NCBI GenBank assembly: GCA_945860285.1 | Contig: CAMAQB010000011.1 | Location: forward strand, 1 to 54,938 | Length of the DNA: 54,938 bases | Source: Akkermansia muciniphila | GTDB taxonomy: Bacteria > Verrucomicrobiota > Verrucomicrobiia > Verrucomicrobiales > Akkermansiaceae | Reading direction: 5' to 3' | Part shown: positions 7,792 through 22,887 of the stretch, piece after piece | Position numbering within the stretch: position 1 is the first letter of the stretch | Layout of the letters: the number at the start of each line of letters is the position of its first letter | The notes under the pieces: generated by a model | The model's input: only the letters and a program-made list of their open reading frames with translations | What the model was told of the DNA's origin: nothing | Database searches by the model: none | Program-made: the position numbers and the translations under genes

Positions 7792-8559
7792 ATGAAAGCC
7801 GTTATTTTAGCCGGGGGTCTTGGAACCCGTCTCTCTGAAGAAACCGCACTGCGTCCGAAACCGATGGTCGAAATCGGTGGACGACCGATTCTTTGGCACA
7901 TCCTCAAAATCTACAGCGCTCATGGCATCAATGATTTCATCATCTGCGCCGGATACAAGGGCTACGTGATCAAGGAATACTTCGCCAACTACTTCCTCCA
8001 CATGTCCGATGTCACATTCGACATGGCCAACAATTCGATGGAGGTTCATCACAAAAAAGCGGAGCCCTGGAAGGTCACGATTGTTGACACCGGCGATGAG
8101 ACCATGACCGGAGGACGGATCAAACGTGTCAAACCATATGTCAACGGCGAAGCTTTCTGCTGCACGTACGGCGATGGTGTCGGTGATATCGATGTCACCG
8201 CTTTGATTGAGTTCCACAAGTCATCGGGTCTCGAAGCAACACTAACAGGTGTCCAGCCGCCGGGACGTTTCGGCGCACTAAATCTGGAAGGCGATCTGAT
8301 CGCGTCATTTCAAGAAAAACCCGAAGGCGATGGTTCATGGATCAACGGCGGCTACTTTGTTCTTGAAGCATCTGTTTTTGATCGGATCGAATCCGACAGC
8401 ACCATTTGGGAGCGTCAACCATTGGAGTCCCTGGCCCACGACCGTCAGTTGGGCATTTTCAAACATAATGGATTCTGGCGACCGATGGATACGCTGCGGG
8501 ATAAAAGCGAACTCGAGAATCTCTGGGACAACCGCGTTGCTCCCTGGAAGATCTGGTGA
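7792..8559 (+). CDS. rfbF: Glucose-1-phosphate cytidylyltransferase
   Basis: A 255-residue nucleotidyltransferase that makes CDP-glucose from glucose-1-phosphate and CTP, the entry to CDP-dideoxy sugars. It has the LAGGLGTRL loop with [26 protein letters not shown] around the metal aspartate, GVQPPGRFG, and INGGYFVLE. Length and motifs match the family exactly. It is followed at once by rfbG and then, after a small antitoxin-like gene, rfbH, which is the standard pathway order. A second, divergent copy of this family lies at 16530. Confidence 0.95.
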
Positions 8560-8600
8560 GTCTTACGTTTCGAAGACTTTCTTGCCTGAACACTATCAAA

Positions 8601-9719
8601 ATGTTCCACTCCACCTACAGCGGTAAATCCGTTTTGCTCACCGGCCACACCGGTTTCAAGGGTTCGTGGCTTGCACAATGGCTTTTGCACTGCGGTGCGG
8701 AACTAGTTGGGTATGCGCTCGACCCCCAGCCTCACGAAGTTCTCTACGACCAACTCGGGATCGGGGCGCGCCTTGTGGCCGATCATCGCGGCGATATCGC
8801 CGATCTTGTCCGGTTGACAAGCATCGTGGCGGAACAAAAGCCCGACTTCATCTTCCATCTTGCCGCCCAGCCTCTTGTCCGCCTTTCTTATGAAATTCCG
8901 GTGGAAACATTCACCACCAATGTGCTCGGCACGGTTCATTTGCTCGAAGCCGTGCGCCGCAGCGGTCATCAGTGTTCGGTTGTCGTAGTCACCACGGACA
9001 AGTGCTACGAGAACCGCGAGTGGCTGCACAGTTACCGTGAGGAGGATGCGATGGGCGGGCATGATCCCTACAGCGCGTCGAAAGGTGCCGCGGAAATCGC
9101 CGCGGCTTCCTATCGCCGTTCGTTTTTCGATCCCGGCGGCAAAGTTGCGATGGCCACGGCCCGTGCCGGCAACGTGATCGGAGGAGGGGATTGGGCGCTC
9201 GATCGCATTGTGCCCGATTGCATTCGCGCGCTCCGCCAAGGCGAGGCGATACCCGTTCGCAACAAGATCGCCACCCGACCGTGGCAGCACGTCCTCGAAC
9301 CGCTTTCCGGTTACCTCTGGCTCGGGGCGGCACTCCACAACAGCCGTATAGCCGAATATCCCGACAACGCCCCTTTCCGCTCTTCGTTCAATTTCGGCCC
9401 CCGGCTTGCCAGCAATCGCACCGTTGCCCAACTCGTCGAATCCCTGATCGCCCAAACCGGCGGCGAGTGGAAGGACTGCTCCGATCCGCACGCGCCGCAC
9501 GAAGCTTCCAAGCTGAATCTCGCCATCGACAAGGCCTTTCACCTCCTGCAATGGCAGCCGGTCTGGGACTTTGAACAAACGATTTTCCGAACCGCGGAAT
9601 GGTATCTTGGTGAACAGCGCGGCGAAGCGCCCGCCGACTTGTGCAATCAACAAATCGAAGCCTACGAAACCGCTGCCATCGCGGCGGGATTGTTGTGGGC
9701 TCGAAGATCCAACGCGTAG
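8601..9719 (+). CDS. rfbG: CDP-glucose 4,6-dehydratase
   Basis: Extended SDR of 372 residues converting CDP-glucose to CDP-4-keto-6-deoxyglucose. The NAD loop is TGHTGFKGSW (14-23), typical of RfbG rather than RmlB. Also present are FHLAAQPLVRLSY, VVTTDKCYENRE, the DPYSASKGAAE YxxxK pair, RAGNVIGGGDWA and RPWQHVLEPLSGYL, all hallmark RfbG segments. The ATG at 8601 is chosen because the longer frame, starting with GTG at 8556, overlaps the rfbF stop and adds residues that do not resemble the family. A 12-base tandem duplication lies across its stop codon. Confidence 0.95.
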   Translation: MFHSTYSGKSVLLTGHTGFKGSWLAQWLLHCGAELVGYALDPQPHEVLYDQLGIGARLVADHRGDIADLVRLTSIVAEQKPDFIFHLAAQPLVRLSYEIPVETFTTNVLGTVHLLEAVRRSGHQCSVVVVTTDKCYENREWLHSYREEDAMGGHDPYSASKGAAEIAAASYRRSFFDPGGKVAMATARAGNVIGGGDWALDRIVPDCIRALRQGEAIPVRNKIATRPWQHVLEPLSGYLWLGAALHNSRIAEYPDNAPFRSSFNFGPRLASNRTVAQLVESLIAQTGGEWKDCSDPHAPHEASKLNLAIDKAFHLLQWQPVWDFEQTIFRTAEWYLGEQRGEAPADLCNQQIEAYETAAIAAGLLWARRSNA

Positions 9720-9795: not shown

Positions 9796-9999
9796 ATGAC
9801 TACTAAAATCAAAGCACACCTTGACGCGGGACGCGTCGTTCTTGATGAACCCATTCCAAAAGATTTTGTGGAGGGGCAAGTCTATGTCATCCTTGTCAAC
9901 AACGACTCACCCAACGCGCAGGAAATCGCGCAAAGCGAAAGTGGCTTTGCGAGGGAGGTTCTCATGAGCACAACAGAAAACATCTGGGAAAATGACTGA
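9796..9999 (+). CDS. Antitoxin-like protein preceding a PemK-like domain
   Basis: A 67-residue protein. The N-terminal half (KIKAHLDAGRVVLDEPIPKDF) looks like a short beta-hairpin DNA-binding or AbrB/DUF2281-type strand. The acidic tail ending in ENIWEND is the kind of extension that antitoxins use to mask a toxin. The last 8 bases (ATGACTGA) overlap the start of the PemK-RfbH gene, the usual antitoxin-toxin coupling. The ATG at 9796 is preferred; the frame is open upstream but only through rfbG and the spacer. The antitoxin role is inferred from position and shape. Confidence 0.6.
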   Translation: MTTKIKAHLDAGRVVLDEPIPKDFVEGQVYVILVNNDSPNAQEIAQSESGFAREVLMSTTENIWEND

Positions 10000-11839
10000 T
10001 ACATACGCTGGCAAAATCTTTCGTGTCCGGTTTCCCTTCACAGAAACCGGCGGTTTCAAGTTGCGCCCGGCTCTCGCGTTGAGTGAGCCGGATGAATATG
10101 GTGACATTCGATGGGCTTTCATTACCACCCGAACCATTCAGAGCAAACTTTCTCTGCATCTCACCGATGAAATGTTTCAAGATCAGCCGTTGCCTCGGCC
10201 GAGCTGTCTGATTCCCGATAAAATCTTCACGATTCATGCGGATCGTATCGATCGCTATTACGCGCATCTTACCGATAAGGCATTTGGTGGAATTCTTAAA
10301 TCTGGCATACTTGCGGAAACGCGCGAGTTTTCCCGCCTTGCCCACACCGCCAACCGGCCCGGCGACGATCCCGCGCGTCCCTTGTACGAAGCCGGGCAAA
10401 CCATTCCTTACGCTGGCAGGGTTTTCACCGAAGACGAAGTCGAAGCTTGCGTATCCGCCACGCTCGACTTCTGGCTTACACTCGGTCCCGAAGGCGAAGC
10501 GATGGAAAAAGAACTCGCCGAGTTCATGGGAGTGAAACATACGCTCCTTGTCAACTCCGGTTCGTCGGCAAACCTAGTCGCCTTCAGCGCGCTCACCACC
10601 CACAAACTCCCCGAGCACAAAAGGATTCGGCCCGGCGATGAAGTGATCACGGTCGCAGCCGGTTTCCCGACCACGGTCTCCCCGATCATCCAGTGCGGCG
10701 CCGTGCCGGTGTTCATCGATGCCAAGCCGCTCACGGGCAATGCCGATTGCAGTTTGCTCGAAGCCGCCTATTCCCCCGGGAAAACCAAGGCGGTGATGAT
10801 GGCACACGCACTCGGCAATCCCTTCGATCTTTCGGTGGTTCTTGCCTTCTGCAAAAAACACGATCTCTGGTTGATCGAAGACAACTGTGACGCGCTTGGT
10901 TGCACCTACACTCTTCCCCTTGAACTTGCGAAGGAGCTGGGACTTGATCATCTGATCAAAATCGCTGAAAAAGGCGGGCATCCGATCATCCGCATCGAGG
11001 ACGGTCAACTCACCGGTCCCACCGGTTCCTTCGGTGACATTTCCACGCAGTCGTTCTATCCTCCACATCATCTCACCATGGGGGAGGGCGGTGCAGTCAA
11101 CATCATCCGTCGGCCGCCGCTGAAGACCTACGCGGAAAGCTTCCGCGATTGGGGCCGCGATTGCTGGTGCGCCTCCGGCAAGGACGACACCTGCGGCAAA
11201 CGGTTCCAATGGCAACTCGGCGAACTCCCCGAGGGGTACGACCACAAGTACATCTACAGCCACATGGGCTTCAATCTCAAGCCGCTCGACACCCAGGCCG
11301 CCATCGGTCGTGTGCAGATCAGGCGTTTGCCTGCTTTTATCGAAGCCCGCAAGCAGAACTGGGAACGCCTCCGTCGCGGACTCCATGGGCTGGAGTCATT
11401 CATCGACTTCGCCCTGCCCACCCACGCCACCGCTTGGAACCCGCCGGAAGATGGTTCAGATCTCAAATCCCAAGTTTCAAATTTCTCCTGGGACTCCAGC
11501 GGCTGCCGCACGGATTGCTCGTGGTTCGGTTTCAAAATCACCATCAAGGAGGATGCACCGTTTACCCGAACCGAACTCGCGGCGCATCTCGATCTGAAAA
11601 AGATCGGCAACCGCATGCTCTTCGGCGGCAACCTCGTGCGCCAGCCCGCCTTTGTGCAGCTGCGTCGCGACAATCCCGCTGCGATGCGTGTCTCGGGGGA
11701 GCTACCCGGAGCCGACCGCATCATGAAGCAAACGATGTTCCTCGGCACGTATCCCGGCCTGACCCCGGAGATGATCGACTACATGGTCCAGGTGATTCAA
11801 GAGTTTGTGGCGGAAAAGTCCGGCGGAGAGGAAAGCTGA
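9992..11839 (+). CDS. rfbH: PemK/MazF-like toxin domain fused to CDP-4-keto-6-deoxyglucose 3-dehydrase (RfbH)
   Basis: A 615-residue fusion. Residues 1-108 are PemK/MazF-like: GKIFRVRFPFTETGG, KLRPALALS, the ITTR strand, and LPRPSCLIPDKIFTIH. From about 110 onward it is RfbH, the PMP- and iron-sulphur-dependent enzyme that removes the 3-hydroxyl of CDP-4-keto-6-deoxyglucose. Evidence for RfbH: VNSGSSANL, ITVAAGFPTTVSPIIQ, SFYPPHHLTMGEGG with His359 in place of the PLP lysine, and the cluster cysteines Cys299 and Cys391-x-Cys393-x7-Cys401. RfbH alone is about 437 residues. The extra length is the toxin domain, a family-typical insertion near 305-345, and a repeat-like insert near 476-507. There is no in-frame ATG, GTG or TTG near the junction, so RfbH can only be made as the fusion. 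The overlap with 9796 suggests translational coupling to the antitoxin-like gene. Confidence 0.9.
   Translation: MTDTYAGKIFRVRFPFTETGGFKLRPALALSEPDEYGDIRWAFITTRTIQSKLSLHLTDEMFQDQPLPRPSCLIPDKIFTIHADRIDRYYAHLTDKAFGGILKSGILAETREFSRLAHTANRPGDDPARPLYEAGQTIPYAGRVFTEDEVEACVSATLDFWLTLGPEGEAMEKELAEFMGVKHTLLVNSGSSANLVAFSALTTHKLPEHKRIRPGDEVITVAAGFPTTVSPIIQCGAVPVFIDAKPLTGNADCSLLEAAYSPGKTKAVMMAHALGNPFDLSVVLAFCKKHDLWLIEDNCDALGCTYTLPLELAKELGLDHLIKIAEKGGHPIIRIEDGQLTGPTGSFGDISTQSFYPPHHLTMGEGGAVNIIRRPPLKTYAESFRDWGRDCWCASGKDDTCGKRFQWQLGELPEGYDHKYIYSHMGFNLKPLDTQAAIGRVQIRRLPAFIEARKQNWERLRRGLHGLESFIDFALPTHATAWNPPEDGSDLKSQVSNFSWDSSGCRTDCSWFGFKITIKEDAPFTRTELAAHLDLKKIGNRMLFGGNLVRQPAFVQLRRDNPAAMRVSGELPGADRIMKQTMFLGTYPGLTPEMIDYMVQVIQEFVAEKSGGEES
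11459..11485 (+). repeat. AT-rich repeat-like insert inside rfbH
   Basis: The run GATCTCAAATCCCAAGTTTC followed by AAATTTC is low-complexity, built of CAAAT/CAAGTTT units, unlike the coding sequence around it. It encodes residues 490-498 in the middle of a segment (about 476-507) that is absent from the RfbH sequences I remember, where an acidic loop leads directly to SWFGF. It looks like an intergenic-type repeat carried in frame. Origin as a mobile repeat is inferred. Confidence 0.4.
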
Positions 11840-12979: not shown

Positions 12980-13520
12980 CTTCGAAACGCAACCTCTGCA
13001 TCTACCCTGCCCTGAAAGGCATCAAAAGGCAGGGAACGATCTCCGAGCGTTCCGGTGGGGGATGCTTGCTTCACGAGTAAACGCAACCTACCTTCACCCC
13101 CTGCATACATTCGCAAACAAAGCGAGTGAGTCAGGAAGAACCTTCGAAAATTATGAATCCCGCCCCCGACGGAATTTTCGGATAAATTACCCTGCCTGAA
13201 AGGTAACGACCGCTGATCCATCGCGTGATCTTTCGCGAAAACCCGCGCCCGGCAGGATGCCGGCCGCAGCCTGCGGGACGCAGGCGCTCCCCGGGAGAAA
13301 TTTCCCTGCCTGAAAGGTAACGACCGCTGATCCATCGCGTGATCTTTCGCGAAAAAACGCGCCCGGCAGGATGCCGGCCGCAGCCTGCGGGACGCAGGCG
13401 CTCCCCGGGAAGAAATTTTCCTGCCTGTGGCAATCTTCCCTACTTGATCGCCGCGTGGATTTCTGAATTTTTCATTGCTTCGCCCCCCGGAAATCCCTAC
13501 AAGCAAAGCAGAGCAAAATC
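12980..13520. other. Repeat-rich intergenic region
   Basis: This 541-base gap contains no credible gene. It begins with two inverted repeats: CCCTGCC/GGCAGGG at 13005-13011/13028-13034 and GGAACG/CGTTCC at 13033-13038/13048-13053. Next is a long-loop inverted repeat, CGAAAATT/AATTTTCG, at 13145-13152/13173-13180. The tandem REP-like repeat at 13191-13427 follows, then about 90 bases leading to the next gene. The reverse-strand reading frames across the repeats are by-products of their GC content. Confidence 0.75.
13191..13427. repeat. Tandem 114/115-bp repeat with paired GGA-loop hairpins (REP/BIME-like)
   Basis: Two nearly identical units (13191-13304 and 13305-13419) start with CCTGCCTGAAAGGTAACGAC, and the first 8 bases of a third unit stand at 13420-13427. 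Each unit contains two adjacent perfect hairpins with a GGA loop. In unit 1, CCGGCA-GGA-TGCCGG is at 13249-13263 and GCCTGCG-GGA-CGCAGGC is at 13269-13285. The units differ mainly by small indels (aaaaccc versus aaaaaac, and one extra base before the end). Such double-hairpin units are the signature of REP/BIME elements spread by RAYT transposases. A degenerate relative (ACCCTGCCCTGAAAGG) lies at about 13004. No RAYT gene is in the window. Confidence 0.85.
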
Positions 13521-14180: not shown

Positions 14181-14334
14181 TTGAGAAGTATTTGGTAAAT
14201 GATGACGGGGTACACATTGCACAGAAAATTTAACTCTCGGTGCGTAGAGTGCTAGAAACCACTAGTGTCAATGCATGCGAAAAAAGGGAAAATGGCAAAC
14301 TGCAACCAAGACCCGTCCCCTAACCTCAAAAACC

Positions 14335-14625
14335 ATGAACTCGCTTGAAACCATCATTTGCTCCATTCAATCATTGGCAAGCGACTTGCGGGGCGCAGGT
14401 GTCGCGGAACTGTGGCTCTTTGGCTCGGCCGCACGAGGAGAAGCGGATGCTAAGGACCTCGATTTCCTCGTGGAATTCACCTCTCCGCCCACCTTGAAGA
14501 GTTTCATGGGTCTCAAATTCTTGTTGGAAGAGCGGCTCCAAATGCCTGTTGATCTCTACTGCCGCAGTTCCTGCCCGGAGCGATTCATGCGGCGTATCCA
14601 AGCCGACCTACTTCATGTCGCGTGA
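14335..14625 (+). CDS. mntA: MntA-type antitoxin (minimal nucleotidyltransferase)
   Basis: A 96-residue minimal nucleotidyltransferase with the full active-site pattern LWLFGSAARGEADAKDLDF: Gly30-Ser31, Arg34-Gly35, Asp41-x-Asp43. In characterised MNT-HEPN systems this protein adds AMP to a tyrosine of the HEPN toxin and so silences it. It overlaps hepT by 11 bases, as in other such pairs. The ATG at 14335 gives the standard family length; an upstream start at 14275 adds a lysine-rich tail of low credibility. Confidence 0.85.
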   Translation: MNSLETIICSIQSLASDLRGAGVAELWLFGSAARGEADAKDLDFLVEFTSPPTLKSFMGLKFLLEERLQMPVDLYCRSSCPERFMRRIQADLLHVA

Positions 14626-14950
14626 TCCAGAACTCCGCCTTGAGGATATCCTCGATGCTTCTCTTGCGATCGAAACCTACATTCGGGGTTTGAATGATGA
14701 GACATTCGCAAAAGACCGGCGCACAGTTGATGCAGTAACCCGCAATCTCGAAATCATCGGAGAAGCGGTTAAATACCTTCCGGAGGATATAACGGATCAA
14801 TTTCCTGAAATTCCATGGCGAGCGATTGCAGGCTTGCGTGACATTTTGGCTCATGGCTATTTCCGGATTGACGATTCTATTATCTGGGACTCGGCATCGA
14901 TTCACAATCCTATGCCGGTCACCGCAGTCAAAAAGTTGCTGAGACTTTGA
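14615..14950 (+). CDS. hepT: HepT-type HEPN toxin
   Basis: A 111-residue all-alpha HEPN protein. The RNase motif RX4HXY is intact: Arg75-DILA-His80-Gly-Tyr82, followed by FRIDDSIIW as in other HepT proteins. The tyrosine is the residue modified by MntA. An earlier LEIIGEAVKYLP helix is also family-typical. The start at 14615 lies inside mntA, giving translational coupling. The C-terminus (about 92-111) is less conserved but shows no clear frameshift. The pair appears intact and presumably functional. Confidence 0.85.
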   Translation: MSRDPELRLEDILDASLAIETYIRGLNDETFAKDRRTVDAVTRNLEIIGEAVKYLPEDITDQFPEIPWRAIAGLRDILAHGYFRIDDSIIWDSASIHNPMPVTAVKKLLRL

Positions 14951-14985
14951 AAGTTCAAGGATTCCAGATCGCCTCCTATACACTG

Positions 14986-16029
14986 ATGATCACCGCATCT
15001 CCGTTACCCGCAGAGGATCTTACGCACATCCTCAAACACACCTCGCCGCTGTGGGAGGAAGCTCGCGGGAAAAGCTTTTTTATCACGGGTGGCACGGGGT
15101 TTTTTGGCATGTGGATGCTGGAGTCCTTCACTCACATCAACGATACATTGCAGCTTGGAGTCCGCGCCACTGTCCTCACTCGCGATCCTGTCGCTTTCGC
15201 TAGAAAAGCGCCTCATCTGGCAAATCGGGCTGATCTCTGTTTCATTCAGGGCGACATTCGCAACTTCGTTTTTCCAGAGGGAAACTTCGATTACCTTATC
15301 CACGCTGCTACCGAAGCCAGCGCCAAGCTCAACAGTGAGGCACCTGATGAGATGCTTGATGCCATTGTCGCCGGTATGAGTCGGACCCTTGATTTCGCGG
15401 CAGAGGCAAATGTCAAAAAATTTCTCTTCACCAGCTCTGGTGCCGTTTACGGTCGTCAGCCTTCTGCGCTCACCCACGTTCCTGAAGATTATAACGGTGC
15501 GCCTGATTGCCTCGACCCCGGCTCTGCTTACGGCGAAGGCAAGCGCGTTGCTGAACTAATGGCGGCGATCCATGTGAAACACCATCCCTGCGAAATGAAG
15601 ATCGCCCGCTGCTTCGCATTTGTCGGGCCGCATCTTCCTTTAGATTCTCATTTCGCAATTGGCAATTTCCTGCGTGATGTCATGGCCGGCAGTCCAATCC
15701 GCATCGGCGGCGATGGCACACCGTATCGCTCCTATCTTTACGCGGCAGACCTTGCCATCTGGCTCTGGACTATTCTTTTTAAGGGGAAATCACTTCGACC
15801 CTACAACGTCGGTTCTGCAGAAGACTACTCGATTGCGAGTCTTGCTTCGATCGTGAATGAAGCGCTTGGCGGCAACTCTTCGATTGAAATCGCCCGTTCC
15901 CCCGAGCCTCATTCATCTCCTTCTCGCTACGTTCCTGCCATTGTGCGTGCGCAAACCGAACTGCAACTACATTGTTGCATCCCGCTTTCTGAGAGCATTT
16001 CTCGGACTCATCGCTGGCATTACTCGTAA
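14986..16029 (+). CDS. NAD(P)-dependent epimerase/reductase of the CDP-dideoxyhexose type
   Basis: Extended SDR of 347 residues. It has the loop FITGGTGFFGMWML, strand FTSSGAVYG, the catalytic pair in SAYGEGKRVAE (YxxxK), RCFAFVGPHLPLD and GDGTPYRSYLYAADLA. The divergent acceptor region and its place after rfbFGH suggest a 4-ketoreductase making a CDP-3,6-dideoxyhexose (abequose/paratose type), or the reductase that follows a YerE-type two-carbon transfer (YerF-like). Sequence alone does not choose between these. The start at 14986 avoids a 13-residue extension. It is separated from rfbH by three inserted cassettes (11892-14950). Confidence 0.8.
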   Translation: MITASPLPAEDLTHILKHTSPLWEEARGKSFFITGGTGFFGMWMLESFTHINDTLQLGVRATVLTRDPVAFARKAPHLANRADLCFIQGDIRNFVFPEGNFDYLIHAATEASAKLNSEAPDEMLDAIVAGMSRTLDFAAEANVKKFLFTSSGAVYGRQPSALTHVPEDYNGAPDCLDPGSAYGEGKRVAELMAAIHVKHHPCEMKIARCFAFVGPHLPLDSHFAIGNFLRDVMAGSPIRIGGDGTPYRSYLYAADLAIWLWTILFKGKSLRPYNVGSAEDYSIASLASIVNEALGGNSSIEIARSPEPHSSPSRYVPAIVRAQTELQLHCCIPLSESISRTHRWHYS

Positions 16030-16051: not shown

Positions 16052-16258
16052 ATGACATCCAAAATTCGAGACGCTGACTACGTATTTTGCGCACTGGCAG
16101 ATCAGGGCGCAGATCACATTTTTCTCGTCAACGGTGGATGTGCGATGCACCTGAACAATGGACTGGGACGGAATCCGCTGCTACATTACGTCTGCAATCA
16201 TAAGGCGCTTGGAAGGATCCCAGCGCAGACGTCTACGCACGTCCAATATGTGCGATGA
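16052..16258 (+). pseudogene. N-terminal stub of a TPP-dependent, YerE/acetolactate-synthase-like enzyme
   Basis: A frame starting at ATG 16052 gives 68 residues. Its first 50 (DADYVFCALADQGADHIFLV, then GGCAMHLNNGLGRNPLLHYVCNH) match the N-terminus of TPP-dependent enzymes; the intact paralogue at 18696 has the same pattern (CFMLAGGGCMHL). Such enzymes are about 550-600 residues long and need a glutamate just after this point, so the gene has lost almost everything. The sequence decays after NHK. In complete rfbFGH loci a gene of this type often follows the SDR, so this is a truncated original member of the pathway. Confidence 0.75.
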
Positions 16259-16529: not shown

Positions 16530-17324
16530 ATGAAATGTGTTATACTTTGTGGTGGACGCGGCATTATTGACCCGGAAACACGTCAGCGGATTCCAAAAGC
16601 CTTAATGCAGGTAGGCGGTCGTCCCTTGATCTGGCACATCATGAAAACTTTTGCTGCGGCCGGACATACCGATTTTATTCTGGCTCTGGGCGAAGGAGGA
16701 GATGCGATTCGCAGATCTTTTCTTAATAACCACATCGAGGGTCGAGACATCGAGTTGGTAGGCGGTTCCAGCGACATCCGTTACTTGACGCCCGCAGACG
16801 AAGAGTCTTGGACGATCAAATGTGTCGATACTGGCCAGAATGCGCAGACGGGCAGTCGCATCGCTCGCTGTCGGCGTTACCTGGAATCAGAGCAGTTTTT
16901 CGTCACCTACAGTGACTGTCTTTGCAATGTAGATCTGGGGGCTCTGTGCATGGCGCATCAGAAAAACGGCAATGTTATCACCGTAACCGGAGTTCAACCT
17001 CCCAGCCGTTTCGGGACGTTCATCGTTTCTGAGGAAAGCGTAACAGGATACTCACTAGAGGCCAAACTGACTGGCATCGGAGGATATCTCAACGGTGGCT
17101 ACATGGTCACGGACGAACGTGTGTTCGACTATCTTCAGGTCTTTAGCGAGTGTAATCTTGAGAGGGATGTATTACCTGCGATGTTGGCGGATCAAGCCAT
17201 CGGATTATTCCCGCACGACGGATATTGGCAGGCGGTGGACACCGAGAGGGAACTAGAGCTTGTCACTCGTTTGCATCTTGAGAATCAGCGCCCATGGTTA
17301 TCTCTGCGCAGCGGACCACTTTAA
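16530..17324 (+). CDS. Divergent sugar-1-phosphate nucleotidyltransferase (RfbF-like)
   Basis: A 264-residue relative of the rfbF product. It shares CVILCGGRG, PKALMQVGGRPLIWHIMKTF, the VTYSDCLCNVDL metal site, GVQPPSRFG and LNGGYMVTD. The activating loop is abnormal: where RfbF has GGLGTRL, this protein has GGRGIID, so the conserved Thr-Arg (12-13) is Ile-Ile, while the PK lysine (Lys23) remains at the same spacing. Nucleotide and sugar are therefore unclear, and it may be inactive or have changed specificity. It heads a run of closely spaced genes (12 bases to the next). Confidence 0.8.
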   Translation: MKCVILCGGRGIIDPETRQRIPKALMQVGGRPLIWHIMKTFAAAGHTDFILALGEGGDAIRRSFLNNHIEGRDIELVGGSSDIRYLTPADEESWTIKCVDTGQNAQTGSRIARCRRYLESEQFFVTYSDCLCNVDLGALCMAHQKNGNVITVTGVQPPSRFGTFIVSEESVTGYSLEAKLTGIGGYLNGGYMVTDERVFDYLQVFSECNLERDVLPAMLADQAIGLFPHDGYWQAVDTERELELVTRLHLENQRPWLSLRSGPL

Positions 17325-17336
17325 CTTTCCCAGCTT

Positions 17337-17864
17337 ATGATCATGAATAATAAAGCAGTAATCGTATTAGCAGCAGGCGTAGAAGACACCGAGTTCGCCT
17401 ATCCCTATTATCGCCTTCAGGAAGCTGGATTCAAAGTGGATGTCGCCACGAAGGGGGGGAAAGATACGGAGGGCAAATGGGGACTACCGATCGCTGCCAC
17501 CGTGGACGCCGAACTGATCAAGGAGAACGACTACGAGATCATCGTGATTCCAGGAGGATACGAGTCCCCGGATCGAGTACGACAGATTGATAATGTTCTA
17601 AAAATCCTACGCGATTTCGATACGAAAAGGAAGGTCATTTCAAGCGTCTGCCATGGACCGTGGGTCTTGGTTTCTGCGGGTATAGTGAGAGGCCGCCGGA
17701 TGACTTGCTACGCCGGATGCAAGGACGATCTGATCAATGCAGGAGCGCTTTACGAGGCATCCCCTGTTGTCACTGATGACAATATCGTGACAGCACCGCA
17801 CTTCCGGAACAACCCGGAGTGGCTTCGTGCCACTCTAGATGCTTACGCAGCACGCAGACCCTGA
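17337..17864 (+). CDS. DJ-1/PfpI-family protein
   Basis: A 175-residue class I glutamine-amidotransferase-like protein. The nucleophile elbow is SVCHGPWVL with Cys105-His106. A glutamate (Glu16 or Glu19, in AGVEDTEF) would assist it, and VIPGGYESPDRVR is the family's second signature. Family members act as proteases, deglycases/hydratases or chaperones; none is standard for polysaccharide synthesis, so the position inside a sugar-nucleotide operon is notable. The start may be 17337 or the ATG at 17343. It could act on a reactive keto or aldehyde intermediate (inference). Confidence 0.85.
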   Translation: MIMNNKAVIVLAAGVEDTEFAYPYYRLQEAGFKVDVATKGGKDTEGKWGLPIAATVDAELIKENDYEIIVIPGGYESPDRVRQIDNVLKILRDFDTKRKVISSVCHGPWVLVSAGIVRGRRMTCYAGCKDDLINAGALYEASPVVTDDNIVTAPHFRNNPEWLRATLDAYAARRP

Positions 17865-17885
17865 GTTCGAAACAGCATTTTGCAA

Positions 17886-18668
17886 ATGGAGCGTTCGCTA
17901 CCTACAACTCTTGTGCATCGTATTTTTCCGGGATCGGCGGATTTCGAGAATCTGTCTCGCTTTCGGACTGAGCAATCAGCCGAGGCGAACTCCTTCGATT
18001 TTTCGCGCGTCGTTGTGAACAAGCCCTGGGGTTACGAATACCTCTGGTTTCAAAACTCCTCGGTTGCAGTCTGGATGCTCCATATCGCGGAAGGTCATTC
18101 GACATCAATGCACTGCCACGCACGCAAGCGAACATCGTTGATTGTATTAGAGGGAGAAGTAGAATGCTCGACTTTCGAAAATAGATACGTTCTAGGTGCT
18201 GGTGGTGCTGTCGTGCTTGAACCCTGTGTCTTTCACGCCACCCGCTCGAAAATTCCTTCTTTCGTTTTGGAAGTTGAAACGCCACCGCTCAAGGGAGACT
18301 TGCTCCGCTACCGTGACGATTTTGGTCGGGCAGGAAGAGGATACGAAGCGGCGAAGCAATACTCGACTGACTTTTCCCAATACAATTATTGCCCCCTGAT
18401 AATTGTTGATGGACAGGCAAAGCCTATGACATTCGGCGGATTGTCTCTGGATTACTGTTCTGCGCGCACAACCGGGGATCTACTCGCTGCTCATAAAACC
18501 GGTGGGCTAATCGTTCCTTTCTTAGGGCGCCTTCTCTTCGATCGCGAATTGATTGCCGACATAGGCGAAGCCGTGGCAGCTAACGAAATACCGATGGAAA
18601 GTTGTCCGAATAGCTTTGCGCCCGTCGAGATGCTCCGCATTCACTCGTTGTCGCAATTACCAGCATAA
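17886..18668 (+). CDS. Cupin-domain protein, sugar-isomerase-like
   Basis: A 260-residue protein with a central cupin. VNKPWGYEYLW resembles the opening of phosphomannose isomerase/sugar cupins. Then come SMHCHARKRTSLIVLEGEVE, with metal-ligand histidines in an HCHxxK/R arrangement, and GGAVVLEPCVFHAT for the second cupin motif. The remaining 120 residues have no feature I can name. A role as sugar isomerase or epimerase, or a sensor of the module's intermediate, is possible. The start is the ATG at 17886; an alternative TTG lies 6 bases upstream. Confidence 0.72.
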   Translation: MERSLPTTLVHRIFPGSADFENLSRFRTEQSAEANSFDFSRVVVNKPWGYEYLWFQNSSVAVWMLHIAEGHSTSMHCHARKRTSLIVLEGEVECSTFENRYVLGAGGAVVLEPCVFHATRSKIPSFVLEVETPPLKGDLLRYRDDFGRAGRGYEAAKQYSTDFSQYNYCPLIIVDGQAKPMTFGGLSLDYCSARTTGDLLAAHKTGGLIVPFLGRLLFDRELIADIGEAVAANEIPMESCPNSFAPVEMLRIHSLSQLPA

Positions 18669-18695
18669 ATTTTCCTGCGCTTAACCTTTTTCTTC

Positions 18696-20507
18696 ATGAA
18701 CGAAATTAAATATTCTGACCTCCTCGGCGACTGGCTCAAAGAACTTGGATACACACATTGTTTCATGCTCGCAGGGGGTGGGTGCATGCACTTAATAGAT
18801 GGTTTCCGTTCGAAATTTGAGTGCATCCCTGTTGTTAATGAAGTGGCAGCAGGGATCGCCGTCGAGCATTTCAACCAGTGTAACCCACATGGTAAGAAGG
18901 CGTTTGCTTTGGTCACAACCGGCCCAGGTTTTACAAATATAACGACCGCGGTCGCTGGTGCCTATTGTGAGCGAAGAGAATTGCTCGTAATCGCTGGCCA
19001 AGTCAAATCCAGCGATTTGCTCACGCCACCTCTCCGCCAAAGGGGCATTCAGGAAGTAGATGGAACCGCACTTACACGTTCGATTTCCGTAGAAAGCACC
19101 TGCCTCACACAGCCGATTTCCCGCGCTGACTTTCGCAAAAAAGTATTGCACGGGCGCAAACCTCATCCCGGCCCGGTGATCATCGAAGTGTGTCTAGACG
19201 TGCAAGGTGCGCGAGTATCCCGTGTCGAATTGGAAGAGGATTCGGTCATAGTGAATCCACCTGTAGAGTCGAATGCCTCCTCATCTCATCTGCAACAGGC
19301 CATTTCCGTCCTTGCGGATGCCCTCAACGATGCCCAAAGGCCTGTCGTTTTGATTGGCGGTTTGGTTTCCCGCGAAATCGTCTGGTCTCATTTGAATATG
19401 CTCGAAGAAATCGGCATTCCTGTCATGACTGCCTCGTCGGCTATCGACCGAATTCCCAGTGACTCGCCTATGGATGCCGGTAGACCCGGTACTTGGGGAG
19501 GGCAGCGATCGGCGAATCTCCTCATTGCGCAGGCGGACGTGGTGGTTGCCATCGGTGTTCAGCTAGATCTTCAACAAACTGGTTTTAACTGGAACGAGTT
19601 TATCCCCAGCGGGCGTCTCTATCAAGTTTATCCCTGCGCGGCGGAGCTTGAAAAAGGTCATCCTTTGCTGGAAGCCGGCTACGAGCTCGATCCGGATGAA
19701 TGCTTCACAGGTCTACTGGCGCGGATTGAATGGGTTGATCACCTTGATTGGGGCGGATATGTGCGCAAGGTCAGAAGACTGCTTCCTACTCTGGAACCTG
19801 ATAATGCACCCCGTGCCGGTTTCCTCTCCTCTTTCGAAGTTTTGCGAAATTTGTCGTTGAGCGTCAGTGAGGAGACTATTCTCGCTTTAAGTTCTAGCGG
19901 AGGCTCCTTTACTGCTGCTCTGCAGGTTTACCATGTTCATCGCAACCAATACGCGACCAGCAGTCCCGCGTTCGCGAGCATGGGATACGGGTTGGCTACG
20001 GCAATTGGAGCGGCTTTTGCGCAACCTGGCAAGCGGGTCATCCTAGTTGAAGGCGACGGAGGTTTTGCACAGAATCTTCAAGAACTCGCCATCATCCGTC
20101 GCCACAATCTTCCGGTTAAGATCTTCATTCTAGATAACGGTGGATATGGCTCGATACGAGCGACTCAGAAAAAGTTCTTTGGCGGAGCCTATGTCGGCTG
20201 CGACGAGGCCACTGGGCTTGGCTTTCCTGATTGGATTTCTCTTTTCCAAGCATTCGGCATCAAAGCTAGTGTGCTAGCTCACGACGACGCCACTCCCGAT
20301 CGCCTCGCCATTCTTCTTTCTGGGGCGGAGCCAGAGGCGTGGCTGGTAAAAGTTGATCCTGAGCAATCAAACTGGCCTGTGGTTTCCTCCCGTATTCTGC
20401 CAGACGGACGAATGACATCCAATCCCTTATACAACATGCTTCCGCCACTCGCTCCAGAACTAGCAGCCGAAACGAGTCGTTACTTGCCTGATCGCACATC
20501 GACTTAG
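18696..20507 (+). CDS. TPP-dependent enzyme (acetolactate-synthase/YerE-like)
   Basis: A 603-residue, full-length three-domain TPP enzyme. The PYR domain has CFMLAGGGCMHL and the catalytic-type Glu49 (VVNEVAAG), followed by TTGPGFTNI. The central domain has PVVLIGG and the PP domain has EGDGGFAQN and DNGGYGSI, the Mg-TPP motif. The family condenses or decarboxylates 2-keto acids. In sugar clusters, YerE adds the acetyl unit of pyruvate to a CDP-4-keto-dideoxyhexose. The stub at 16052 is a paralogue. Substrate is inferred only. The ATG is 27 bases after the cupin gene. Confidence 0.85.
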   Translation: MNEIKYSDLLGDWLKELGYTHCFMLAGGGCMHLIDGFRSKFECIPVVNEVAAGIAVEHFNQCNPHGKKAFALVTTGPGFTNITTAVAGAYCERRELLVIAGQVKSSDLLTPPLRQRGIQEVDGTALTRSISVESTCLTQPISRADFRKKVLHGRKPHPGPVIIEVCLDVQGARVSRVELEEDSVIVNPPVESNASSSHLQQAISVLADALNDAQRPVVLIGGLVSREIVWSHLNMLEEIGIPVMTASSAIDRIPSDSPMDAGRPGTWGGQRSANLLIAQADVVVAIGVQLDLQQTGFNWNEFIPSGRLYQVYPCAAELEKGHPLLEAGYELDPDECFTGLLARIEWVDHLDWGGYVRKVRRLLPTLEPDNAPRAGFLSSFEVLRNLSLSVSEETILALSSSGGSFTAALQVYHVHRNQYATSSPAFASMGYGLATAIGAAFAQPGKRVILVEGDGGFAQNLQELAIIRRHNLPVKIFILDNGGYGSIRATQKKFFGGAYVGCDEATGLGFPDWISLFQAFGIKASVLAHDDATPDRLAILLSGAEPEAWLVKVDPEQSNWPVVSSRILPDGRMTSNPLYNMLPPLAPELAAETSRYLPDRTST

Positions 20508-20541
20508 TCCGACTTTCACATCCATCCGCTTATCCAGACTA

Positions 20542-21582
20542 ATGAACTCTCATCTTGTTTCCGCGCCCGATTTAGAACTTTGGGTCACAGATGCTTTTAT
20601 TTCAGTTGGACTTACTGAGTCAGATTCTCGTTTGGCAGCTATAATGCTCGTACAGACGAGTCTTTGGGGTATCGATTCTCATGGTGTGGCAAGGGTGCCG
20701 CATTACCTCGAACGCATCAGCACCGGTTCCATCCGAGCGGTTCCACAGATGGATTACACGGCCACGGGTGCCGCGACGGGTAGCTTGGATGGCGATCATG
20801 GGCTTGGGTTCATAGTCTGTCAGCGTGCCATGGAAGAGGCAATCACGCTGGCGCATGCAGCGGGTGTCGGCGTCGTGGGCGTGAAGAATTCTAGCCACTG
20901 TGGAGCGATTGGCCTCTACACGAGGCAGGCTGTCAAGGCTGGAATGATCGGCATTGCATTTACCCATTCGGATTCTTTTGTAGCGCCGCATCGAGGCAAG
21001 TCGGCATTTTTCGGAACCAATCCAATCTCAATCGCTATCCCATCGACATATGCCCAGCGTCCTCTTTGCCTGGATATGGCCACAAGCATCGTGCCTTGGA
21101 ACCGCATCATGAATGCACGCCGTGAGAACTGCAGCATTCCGTTTGGCTATGGCGTTAATAGACTGGGCGAGGATACGACTAATCCACACGAGGTTACAGC
21201 CGTAAAACCCATGGCAGACCACAAAGGCTACGCAATGGCTTTCCTGATCGATATGCTGTGTGGGCCACTGAACGGCATGGCTTTTGGTCCCGGGCTGACT
21301 AAGATGTATGAACAACTCGATGAACATAGAAGATTGGGTTCGTTAATGATAGCGCTGGATCCCAGACGTTTTTCCGGAGGTTTGACCCTTGCGGCCCAAG
21401 TGGCGGCAGCTATTGCAGCGGTCACCGGACAAAATCAGGGGATTCTTTATCCAGGAGAACCCGAATATCTCTCCGCCGAAATTCGCGGCCAGTGCGGGAT
21501 ACCCATTGAACCTGGCCTTTGGCAGCAGATGGAGCATTGGTCTTCGTGTATGAATATTCCCCTCCCTACAACAATACCGTAA
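20542..21582 (+). CDS. Ldh-family NAD(P)-dependent oxidoreductase (malate/L-sulfolactate dehydrogenase type)
   Basis: A 346-residue type 2 malate/L-lactate dehydrogenase fold. It shows WGIDSHGVARVPHYLERI, SLDGDHGLGFIVCQRAM, KNSSHCGAIGLYTRQAV, FGTNPISIAIP, LDMATSIVPW and the DHKGYAMAFLIDML catalytic segment. The family reduces 2-keto acids. Members also occur in surface-sugar clusters beside NeuB-like synthases, where the true substrate is unsettled. The HAD gene begins on the very next base, so they are co-expressed. Confidence 0.88.
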   Translation: MNSHLVSAPDLELWVTDAFISVGLTESDSRLAAIMLVQTSLWGIDSHGVARVPHYLERISTGSIRAVPQMDYTATGAATGSLDGDHGLGFIVCQRAMEEAITLAHAAGVGVVGVKNSSHCGAIGLYTRQAVKAGMIGIAFTHSDSFVAPHRGKSAFFGTNPISIAIPSTYAQRPLCLDMATSIVPWNRIMNARRENCSIPFGYGVNRLGEDTTNPHEVTAVKPMADHKGYAMAFLIDMLCGPLNGMAFGPGLTKMYEQLDEHRRLGSLMIALDPRRFSGGLTLAAQVAAAIAAVTGQNQGILYPGEPEYLSAEIRGQCGIPIEPGLWQQMEHWSSCMNIPLPTTIP

Positions 21583-22230
21583 ATGTCCGCAGCCATTCTC
21601 TTCGACTTCGATGGTGTCATCGCTGATACTCCACAATGGAACGCTCTCGCCTGGCAAAAAGTATTTGCTGAAAAAGGTGCGACTATTTCCCTCTTGGATT
21701 ACTTTCGCATGGAAGGTCGAGGACCAGATGCCATTGCCCGTCATTTTTGTCGAGAACATGGGTTAGCTCTGTCGCTCGAAAGCGAGCTAGTTCATCACAA
21801 AGAACAAATTATGAACGGATTTGGGCCGATAAGAATCTACACAGAAATCACACCTTTATTAATCAAGCTCGAATCTCTTGGTATTTCTCGCGCCCTTGTG
21901 ACGGGAGCCTCCCGCCACCGTATCCAAAAATCACTACCAAGCCGAATTGCAAAGCTCTTCGATGCGGTGATTACCAGCGATGATGTGGCCGAAACAAAAC
22001 CGTCACCTGAGCCCTATCTTACCGCATCCCGCTTGCTTGGAGCAAATCCCGCTCAAAGCTTTGTCGTAGAAAACGCGCCCCTTGGCATTCGATCGGCAAA
22101 AGCAGGTGGGTTTTATTGCTTCGCATTGCAAACCACCCTGCCACCTGCCGAGCTCACTGGTGCTGACCTAATCGTCAAGGATCATGAAGAGCTCATTCGT
22201 AAACTTTCAGCATTACTGAGTAGAAGATAG
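21583..22230 (+). CDS. HAD-superfamily sugar phosphatase/phosphoglucomutase-like
   Basis: A 215-residue HAD subclass IA protein. Motif I is FDFDGVIADT (nucleophile Asp near 8, acid/base Asp at +2), motif II is LVTGAS, motif III is the lysine in ETKPSPEPY, and motif IV is VENAPLGIRSAKA with Glu-Asn in place of the usual Glu-Asp. The cap is helical, as in beta-phosphoglucomutase. It would dephosphorylate or isomerise a sugar phosphate of the module, for example the phosphorylated product of a NeuB-type condensation. It follows the Ldh gene with no spacer. Confidence 0.82.
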   Translation: MSAAILFDFDGVIADTPQWNALAWQKVFAEKGATISLLDYFRMEGRGPDAIARHFCREHGLALSLESELVHHKEQIMNGFGPIRIYTEITPLLIKLESLGISRALVTGASRHRIQKSLPSRIAKLFDAVITSDDVAETKPSPEPYLTASRLLGANPAQSFVVENAPLGIRSAKAGGFYCFALQTTLPPAELTGADLIVKDHEELIRKLSALLSRR

Positions 22231-22386
22231 GTTGACTATTGTTCGGCGCACGCTGTGTTCGTAAATCCTCAATATTTATCAAATCCCATGGAAAAACAGC
22301 TCGAGAGATAATGCATTTCACGCTTATAATCGCTACACAAAATGTTTCCAGAGTTGGCACGAAGTTTAACATCTTCTGCCCAATGA

Positions 22387-22887
22387 AAAGGTTACCCCCG
22401 AATCGCCCAAAACGCACGTCCCGCGATTGCCTCGACTGGCGGCTCATTCACCAAAGAAATTGATGACCTCGTGAAATTCTCTCAAAATCGCGACATTCCT
22501 TTTGCTCTCAACGACTGCGTCCCGCTTTATCCTTTGGAAGATAGTGATCTAGAGCTAATCAGTTAGATTTTCTCCGCAATCACTTTCCGAATGTAGCGTG
22601 CAATGTCCCCCCGCAAAAAAGTAAAGAATCTTGATGCCCTAGTTCATTGGTTTTACGCCAAACGTGATCTTCCGCAAGGGTATCAAATCACGCAAGAGAA
22701 TATCTTTGAAGATTTCCACTTCGCGATCCCGCTACAGCTGGGCCGAATTTCCTGCCGGGAACTGCTGAATGGCGAGGTCATGACCAAAACTCTGGACAAG
22801 GATGCGGCTCTATCTTTAGATTTCATCAAGGGACTGTATGTCTCGAATCCATATTTGAAGAGTATCCCGTCCGAACGAGGTATTTAA
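22387..22887 (+). pseudogene. Remnant of a NeuB-family (nonulosonate) synthase with SAF domain
   Basis: Two blocks in the same frame are separated by stops at 22564 and 22594. Block 1 (22399-22563) reads RPAIASTGGSFTKEIDDLV and continues to a CVPLYPLED turn, matching the PEP-binding beta-strand and 'hCv..YP' segment of the NeuB TIM barrel. Block 2 (ATG 22603 to stop 22887, 94 codons) is the complete C-terminal SAF/antifreeze-like domain: LVHWFYAKRDLPQGYQIT, a SCRELLNGEV turn, and the family's closing YVSNPYLKSIPSERGI-type tail. The rest of the barrel is missing. A separate short SAF protein is possible, but a deleted synthase is the simpler reading. Confidence 0.75.

Follow-up and report, generated by a model that had tools for sequence, protein, structure and literature searches.

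A recurring six-gene set beside CDP-3,6-dideoxyhexose genes in Akkermansia muciniphila probably builds a branched surface sugar

Two unrelated kinds of thiamine diphosphate (ThDP)-dependent enzyme are known to attach branches to sugars. YerE, of the first kind, adds the two-carbon unit of pyruvate to cytidine diphosphate (CDP)-3,6-dideoxy-4-keto-D-glucose, and ErwE prefers longer hydroxylated 2-keto acids; the E1-type enzymes (alpha-KADH2) form similar branches in antibiotics and are described as specialised for C2 branches (PMC12247030, available part of the review). AviB1/AviB2 and Pau11/Pau12 are named as alpha-KADH2 pairs, with YerE as the other type (PMC4753412, available part). A stretch of 54,938 nucleotides from Akkermansia muciniphila (contig CAMAQB010000011.1 of assembly GCA_945860285.1; the whole stretch is called the window here) contains a set of six genes that probably build a branched surface sugar. 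An earlier note on this DNA held that the set matches no pathway, which is too strong: a YerE-like enzyme together with RfbF, RfbG and RfbH is the known plan for 4-C-branched sugars such as yersiniose and erwiniose (PMC12247030, same part).

The set spans 5.7 kb (16530–22230) and comprises six intact open reading frames (ORFs) on the forward strand, in the order NTx (an RfbF-like nucleotidyltransferase), PfpI, cupin, TPP2 (the ThDP enzyme), Ldh2 and HAD. The tight, same-strand arrangement and the domain calls of the earlier note are borne out by intergenic gaps of 12, 15, 27, 34 and 0 bp and by matches to the Pfam profiles NTP_transferase, DJ-1_PfpI, Cupin_2, TPP_enzyme N/M/C, Ldh_2 and HAD_2, each above its own cut-off. 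Upstream, the route to CDP-4-keto-3,6-dideoxyglucose is complete, since RfbF, RfbG and RfbH each exceed their NCBIfam cut-offs (Table 1). The closest relative of TPP2 with a solved structure is 8rph (E 5e-71; second match 5e-46), which is the YerE-like enzyme JanthE (PMC12188165, available part). Given this relative and the complete RfbF-RfbG-RfbH route, the predicted product is likely a 4-C-branched CDP-3,6-dideoxyhexose.

TPP2 has its ThDP machinery (E49, G453-D454-G455, N481) and shares 25–36% identity with the relatives compared. Of 386 other genomes sampled from the phylum, 57 (58 of 387 with its own) encode relatives at 30–36% identity, which adjoin rfbH plus NeuB-like, aldolase or HAD genes. 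The names NeuB-like, HMGL aldolase, GmhA and HldE in these related loci come from reading of the ORF sequences and not from profile searches. RfbG, RfbH or both were found in 16 of 19 wide loci around TPP2 relatives, some of which end at contig ends. A plain acetolactate synthase was considered for TPP2 and rejected, since those acetolactate equivalogs that rank in the top 25 of 53 families score far below cut-off. Plasmid searches (tblastn) with the ThDP enzyme and Ldh2 gave matches below 60% identity throughout; those listed are ordinary members of large families.

The set recurs outside the window. Scanning named genomes with the cupin yielded 166 relatives. Of the best 80 loci, which were analysed further, 12 contain all six families (11 distinct, since L206 and L207 are almost copies of each other, with 98% identity over 7 kb). 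These loci belong to Verrucomicrobiota, Bacteroidota and candidate phyla. The order of the window is kept in ten of the 12, over 6.3–6.8 kb, which leaves space for one more gene behind the ThDP gene or in front of the HAD gene (an HpaI-type aldolase in L202, a methyltransferase in L206); in L213 the ThDP gene comes first, and in L204 the HAD gene lies further away. Identities to the window proteins range over 39–61% for NTx, 49–74% for PfpI, 37–53% for the cupin, 27–31% for the ThDP enzyme, 37–67% for Ldh2 and 34–53% for HAD (11 of 12 loci), and in the Spartobacteria locus L202 they are 61, 74, 53, 29, 67 and 53%, respectively. The six genes are thus a real, recurring set and not a chance assembly. 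The linkage proposed in the earlier note therefore stands, and scattered, unlinked occurrence of the genes was not encountered. Within the phylum sample, the cupin is absent from the 386 other genomes (E up to 1e-25), and NTx as bait matched its own genome alone among all 387 (E up to 1e-58); among 348 genomes of one Bacteroidota order, an NTx bait again matched only its own genome.

Two genes of the set, pfpI and the cupin gene, are found together far more widely. The 80 genomic loci were joined by the best 80 of 100 cupin relatives on IMG/VR viral contigs, and the profiles used for neighbourhood counts were built from these same loci. With none of the 160 dropped, 75 have a YerE-like enzyme only, 71 an E1-alpha/beta enzyme only, six have both and eight neither, which amounts to a ThDP enzyme in 152; PfpI is present in 137 (73 of 80 viral, 64 of 80 genomic), and in 89 of the 137 fewer than 150 bp separate the end of its gene from the downstream cupin. 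Restriction to loci flanked by 5 kb or more on each side (60 viral and 48 genomic; 20 and 32 dropped) gave 50 YerE-like, 52 E1, four with both and two with neither, i.e., a ThDP enzyme in 106 and PfpI in 103 of 108. After removal of cupins 75% alike, the counts were 39, 29, two and two (ThDP enzyme 70/72, PfpI 67/72). In 39 of 232 loci, corresponding to 36 contigs (the contigs of L056, L058 and L061 are counted twice), a single open frame encodes both the cupin and a ThDP enzyme. As a control, 68 viral loci were picked by a YerE-like ThDP enzyme with the cupin absent; PfpI was found in none of them and E1 in five. The cupin is therefore nearly always accompanied by a ThDP enzyme, whereas a ThDP enzyme does not imply the cupin. 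Leaving aside TPP2, whose placement is unsure, the label “beside a cupin” is strongly clustered in the tree of ThDP enzymes (three changes vs. 46 in shuffles). The strongest argument that the pair serves branching chemistry is this exchange: two unrelated ThDP enzymes of one known chemistry replace each other beside the same PfpI and cupin.

Other genes in these neighbourhoods include UxaA-like dehydratases, which accompany both kinds of ThDP enzyme. A B12-binding radical SAM protein lies within 8 kb of the cupin in 38 of the 108 loci (e.g., L239 and L256), 31 of them with E1-type enzymes. Sixteen genomic loci (L216, L217, L219, L221, L224, L226–L228, L230, L231, L233–L235, L237, L248 and L262) contain two YerE-like ThDP ORFs, one of which is fused in frame with the cupin in all 16, and the two kinds occupy different parts of the tree.

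In the viral loci (L122–L201, from uncultivated viruses in IMG/VR), PfpI-cupin pairs stand beside ThDP enzymes of the E1 or YerE-like type. Of these 80 loci, 44 also encode a member of a small HAD-like family (128 aa in L122) that occurs in no genomic locus. A further 71 IMG/VR loci (L050–L120) encode YerE-like ThDP enzymes, mostly beside RfbH-like (DegT) proteins, and branched-sugar genes may be common on phages. Of ten flank proteins, five match families of phage replication or recombination (clamp loader, processivity factor, single-strand annealing, exonuclease, ParB C-terminal), two belong to different families of unknown function, one of these proteins with an additional, weaker DarB-like match, and three have no match. 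The PHROGs families matching the window ThDP protein and the phage-type PfpI are likewise annotated as of unknown function. TPP2 as a single query found no match among the viral contigs. One phage-type cupin of the family, used as query, found none among the INPHARED phages, so the phage reading rests on the IMG/VR contigs.

The window PfpI exceeds the family cut-offs (PF01965, 156.2 bits; TIGR01382, 151.1 vs. 139.05) and falls below those of two equivalogs, deglycase PfpI (NF040823, 112.6 vs. 330) and DJ-1 glyoxalase III (TIGR01383, 77.8 vs. 131.25). The roles of the DJ-1 superfamily are disputed. Across 138 aligned rows Cys105 is invariant, and the position of the family Glu (E16 in the window) holds Glu in 23 and Gln in 109. 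The cupin matches PF07883 at 28.5 bits (cut-off 27.2), and its H78, H80 and H119 are invariant in 61 rows. In its predicted model (pLDDT 92.4, pTM 0.90) the first half resembles KdgF (Z 12.9), phosphomannose isomerase, the CapF cupin domain and D-lyxose isomerase, which are tied at Z 12–13; this is likeness of fold and does not imply function, and families absent from the list of structural matches are not thereby excluded. In CapF, the cupin domain epimerises and a short-chain dehydrogenase/reductase (SDR) domain reduces the intermediate (PMC5393024, available part). An SDR of the epimerase family and a cupin form a single protein in L239 (8083–9798, by Pfam; an E1-type locus) and, by sequence, in L256 (7948–9678).

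The “altered nucleotidyltransferase” of the earlier note is likewise upheld: NTx scores 196.1 bits against the RfbF equivalog TIGR02623, below the cut-off of 300.25, and a separate RfbF in the same window scores 460. The Arg of the GTR motif is replaced by Ile, and the absence of this Arg is common to 13 other rows adjoining a cupin. In the window and 12 genomic loci, the motif reads G[IV][IV]D and the KPKP site PKA, PKC or PKG; the NTx of L257 has a variant motif, also without the Arg, and the candidate-phylum members examined keep it. The Lys of PK and the Asp aligned to the YSD motif are retained. A decayed RfbF was rejected on the ground of the shared Arg loss, and the motif change, judged from the aligned sequences, is conserved rather than a sign of decay. 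Ldh2 matches PF02615 at 332.9 and lies below the NCBIfam cut-offs for ureidoglycolate, sulfolactate and related equivalogs (best of five, 251.6 vs. 356).

Table 1. Genes and gene relics of the branched-sugar region of the window.
Feature	Position	Strand	Remarks
NTx, RfbF-like nucleotidyltransferase, separate subfamily	16530..17324	+	GGRGIIDPETRQRIPKAL replaces GGLGTRL..KPKP
PfpI/DJ-1 family protein	17337..17864	+	Cys105-His106 and DJ-1 family Glu (E16) kept
Cupin	17880..18668	+	HxH...H (H78, H80, H119); C-terminal half beta-rich
TPP2, YerE-like ThDP enzyme, very divergent	18696..20507	+	Glu49 and GDG...N kept
Ldh2-type NAD(P)-dependent 2-keto/2-hydroxy acid oxidoreductase	20542..21582	+	Pfam Ldh_2
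HAD hydrolase, beta-phosphoglucomutase-like group	21583..22230	+	Pfam HAD_2
RfbF, glucose-1-phosphate cytidylyltransferase	7792..8559	+	NCBIfam 459.9 bits vs. cut-off 300.25
RfbG, CDP-glucose 4,6-dehydratase	8556..9719	+	NCBIfam 455.7 vs. cut-off 278.45
RfbH, lipopolysaccharide biosynthesis, CDP-3,6-dideoxyhexose route	9992..11839	+	NCBIfam 622.1 vs. cut-off 423
NAD-dependent epimerase/dehydratase	14947..16029	+	Adjoins RfbH and ThDP genes in related loci
Relic TPP1, first ~46 residues of another YerE-like ThDP enzyme	16058..16198	+	
Relic, two NeuB-type synthase pieces	22399..22887	+	

Glycosyltransferase genes flank the set on both sides, and a gene relic adjoins each of its ends. TPP1, overlooked in the earlier note, lies upstream of NTx and directly after the epimerase gene; it encodes the N-terminus of a further YerE-like ThDP enzyme and has 63% identity to an intact enzyme of the phylum but only 34% to TPP2. 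Downstream, the “broken” NeuB of the earlier note is real: two pieces (22399–22557 and 22597–22884) correspond to residues 137–189 and 273–368 of a 368-aa NeuB. As a relic outside the set, NeuB was rejected as a set member, and its C-terminal piece matched nothing in the 80 genomic cupin loci. Of the 2-keto acid chemistry proposed earlier, the part that fits a YerE-like enzyme stands, and the part that counted NeuB into the set does not. PfpI, as also proposed there, may handle a reactive aldehyde. About 13 kb of the related locus L046 hold RfbG (truncated where the sequence ends), RfbH, a ThDP enzyme, NeuB and an epimerase with 68% identity to that of the window. The simplest history may be that the six-gene set was inserted between what are now the two relics, while RfbFGH and the epimerase were retained. 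The RfbH proteins of the window and of L202 (1216–2997) both carry an N-terminal extension of more than 100 residues without a Pfam match. Elsewhere in the polysaccharide locus is an NTP_transf_2 nucleotidyltransferase and HepT-like pair (14275–14950), a module of the MNT-HEPN toxin-antitoxin type. A tandem repeat lies at 13180–13427 (114-bp unit, 2.2 copies, 95% matches).

In the proposed scheme, RfbF, RfbG and RfbH would supply CDP-4-keto-3,6-dideoxyglucose, and TPP2 would decarboxylate a 2-keto acid and transfer the acyl group of that acid to the ketone at C4, so that a tertiary alcohol bearing a keto branch forms. PfpI and the cupin would be dedicated partners of the branching chemistry, HAD and Ldh2 further helpers, and NTx would activate a second substrate. 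The 4-C-branched sugar would enter a surface polysaccharide, as the glycosyltransferases of the window point to. The genes are demonstrably intact, linked, conserved and assignable to families, and every reaction is inferred; that PfpI and the cupin are functional partners of ThDP-dependent branching is probable. As to where they act, the cupin (three His, isomerase/epimerase shape) and PfpI (a Cys enzyme of the DJ-1 family) may process the keto branch, or else the keto sugar that carries it, with Ldh2 setting the redox state of branch or donor. This assignment is tentative, at somewhat less than even odds, and is favoured over a role of the pair in donor supply because the same two proteins are also found with E1-type enzymes, for which a specialisation in C2 branches is described. 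The broader proposal, that PfpI and the cupin form an undescribed two-protein step of ThDP-dependent sugar branching, working with two unrelated ThDP enzyme kinds across many bacterial phyla, some archaea and uncultivated phages, has slightly better than an even chance of being correct. No account of the six-gene set, or of PfpI and cupin with sugar branching, was found in the open literature, covered mostly as titles and beginnings of abstracts and excluding subscription papers and preprints.

Several observations weigh against these proposals. TPP2 has a very long end branch (3.48 vs. a median of 0.39), which makes its tree placement unsure, and departs from its relatives at H48N, Q50V, D92E and S93R, positions conserved in 28 or 29 of 29 relatives in the phylum; around the catalytic Glu it reads NEV and ER, where the relatives mostly have HEQ and DS, motifs not known as defining. 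Because of the long branch and the four departures, TPP2 is less certain to be active than its counterparts; it may act on a new substrate or be losing its function. The E1 proteins of the partner loci are known as E1-like only (L122), and sugar branching is ascribed to them by analogy. With RfbF already there, the scheme offers no obvious role for NTx, and it includes no ketoreductase for the branch. L203 (Cephaloticoccus), the nearest locus in cupin and NTx, has the cupin, ThDP enzyme, PfpI and HAD and no Ldh2 in its 11.5 kb. Eight of the 160 cupin loci, several on short contigs, are without a ThDP enzyme. Outside this sample, the Rouxiella badensis plasmid NZ_CP060593.1 (L121) carries cupin, PfpI, a HAD-like protein (also named by sequence reading), a second PfpI-like protein and a polysaccharide deacetylase, with no YerE-like or E1 match in 18.9 kb. 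Finally, the loci are the best-scoring parts of both scans, and many are kin by descent.

A different site of action for the same partners is possible though rather unlikely: a 2-oxoaldehyde, released or shaped by the cupin after dephosphorylation by HAD, would be turned by PfpI into a 2-hydroxy acid, which Ldh2 would oxidise to a 2-keto acid for use by TPP2 as acyl donor. Such a conversion of alpha-oxoaldehydes to alpha-hydroxy acids is described in vitro for DJ-1 family enzymes (PMC11301059, available part) and would suit an Ldh2 partner; the PfpI Glu is present in 17 of 20 loci with Ldh2 vs. six of 118 without. This link may, however, reflect common descent; three phage loci with Ldh2 have no Glu, and most loci have Gln at that position. 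The set is also flanked by a ThDP gene relic on one side and by a relic of NeuB, which is a synthase of 2-keto acids, on the other, with RfbFGH intact. HpaI-type aldolases, another source of 2-keto acids, lie near nine of the 108 cupins, and each of these nine loci has a YerE-like enzyme, as would suit longer donors at such loci; yet L202 and L213, having both HpaI and Ldh2, would then possess two donor sources. PfpI and the cupin are also equally constant beside E1-type enzymes, with their described specialisation in C2 branches.

A less probable arrangement would have the ThDP enzyme as a mere neighbour, with NTx, HAD, Ldh2, PfpI and cupin making a second, unbranched activated block such as a CDP-linked sugar acid or hydroxy acid. 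In its favour, NTx is a distinct cytidylyltransferase-like family separate from the RfbF of the same loci, NTx, Ldh2 and HAD of the 12 sister loci match the window better than the ThDP enzyme does, and the Rouxiella plasmid carries the pair without a ThDP match. The cupin-ThDP fusions and the near-constant ThDP enzyme argue against it, as does the limited spread of NTx-like proteins (24 of 80 genomic loci, RfbF cross-matches included, and none of 80 viral ones). Very improbable is a decaying island assembled by chance, with TPP2 already out of use. The flanking relics, the long branch of TPP2 and the absence of cupin and NTx from every other sampled genome of the phylum at the limits used would suit it, but the six frames are intact and close-packed, their order is conserved in most sister loci, five of the proteins are 53–74% identical to those of the Spartobacteria locus, and TPP2 retains Glu49 and GDG...N. 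Should PfpI and the cupin indeed form a two-protein step of sugar branching, a protein of the DJ-1 superfamily would gain a defined biosynthetic job on a carbohydrate, and a testable enzymatic task, and the window set would make a new branched sugar. As a marker, the pair would sort branching clusters and predict which of them make a further-processed branch.

Among described systems, the set can be compared with the legionaminate-type nonulosonate pathways: a NeuB relic adjoins it, in two pieces outside the set, which itself has no intact NeuB. The window PfpI resembles the glyoxalase III-like DJ-1/PfpI proteins in reaching the family cut-off and in its Cys, His and Glu, but it belongs to a biosynthetic operon, and most of its cupin-adjoining relatives have Gln for Glu. 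CapF, an SDR-cupin protein of capsule sugar synthesis, has a cupin domain of similar shape (Z 12.6) that works beside a reductase on the product of CapE (PMC5393024, same part), and SDR-cupin fusions occur in L239 and, by sequence, in L256; the identity is 11–12%, however, and the window cupin stands alone with its own C-terminal half, unfused to an SDR. With the alpha-KADH2 systems the likeness lies in the chemistry, proposed or demonstrated for them (PMC4753412, PMC12247030, available parts), and in the E1-like pairs that replace the YerE-like enzyme beside the same PfpI and cupin, although such enzymes are not in the window and the partner-locus proteins are known as E1-like only. A further comparison is with the sugar clusters of the YerE-like enzymes YerE (yersiniose A), ErwE (erwiniose), JanthE and MMAR_2332 (caryophyllose). 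While TPP2 is very divergent, and the available part of the review (PMC12247030) mentions none of PfpI, cupin, Ldh2, HAD and NTx for them, these clusters share with the window the genes for CDP-4-keto-3,6-dideoxyglucose beside a ThDP enzyme.

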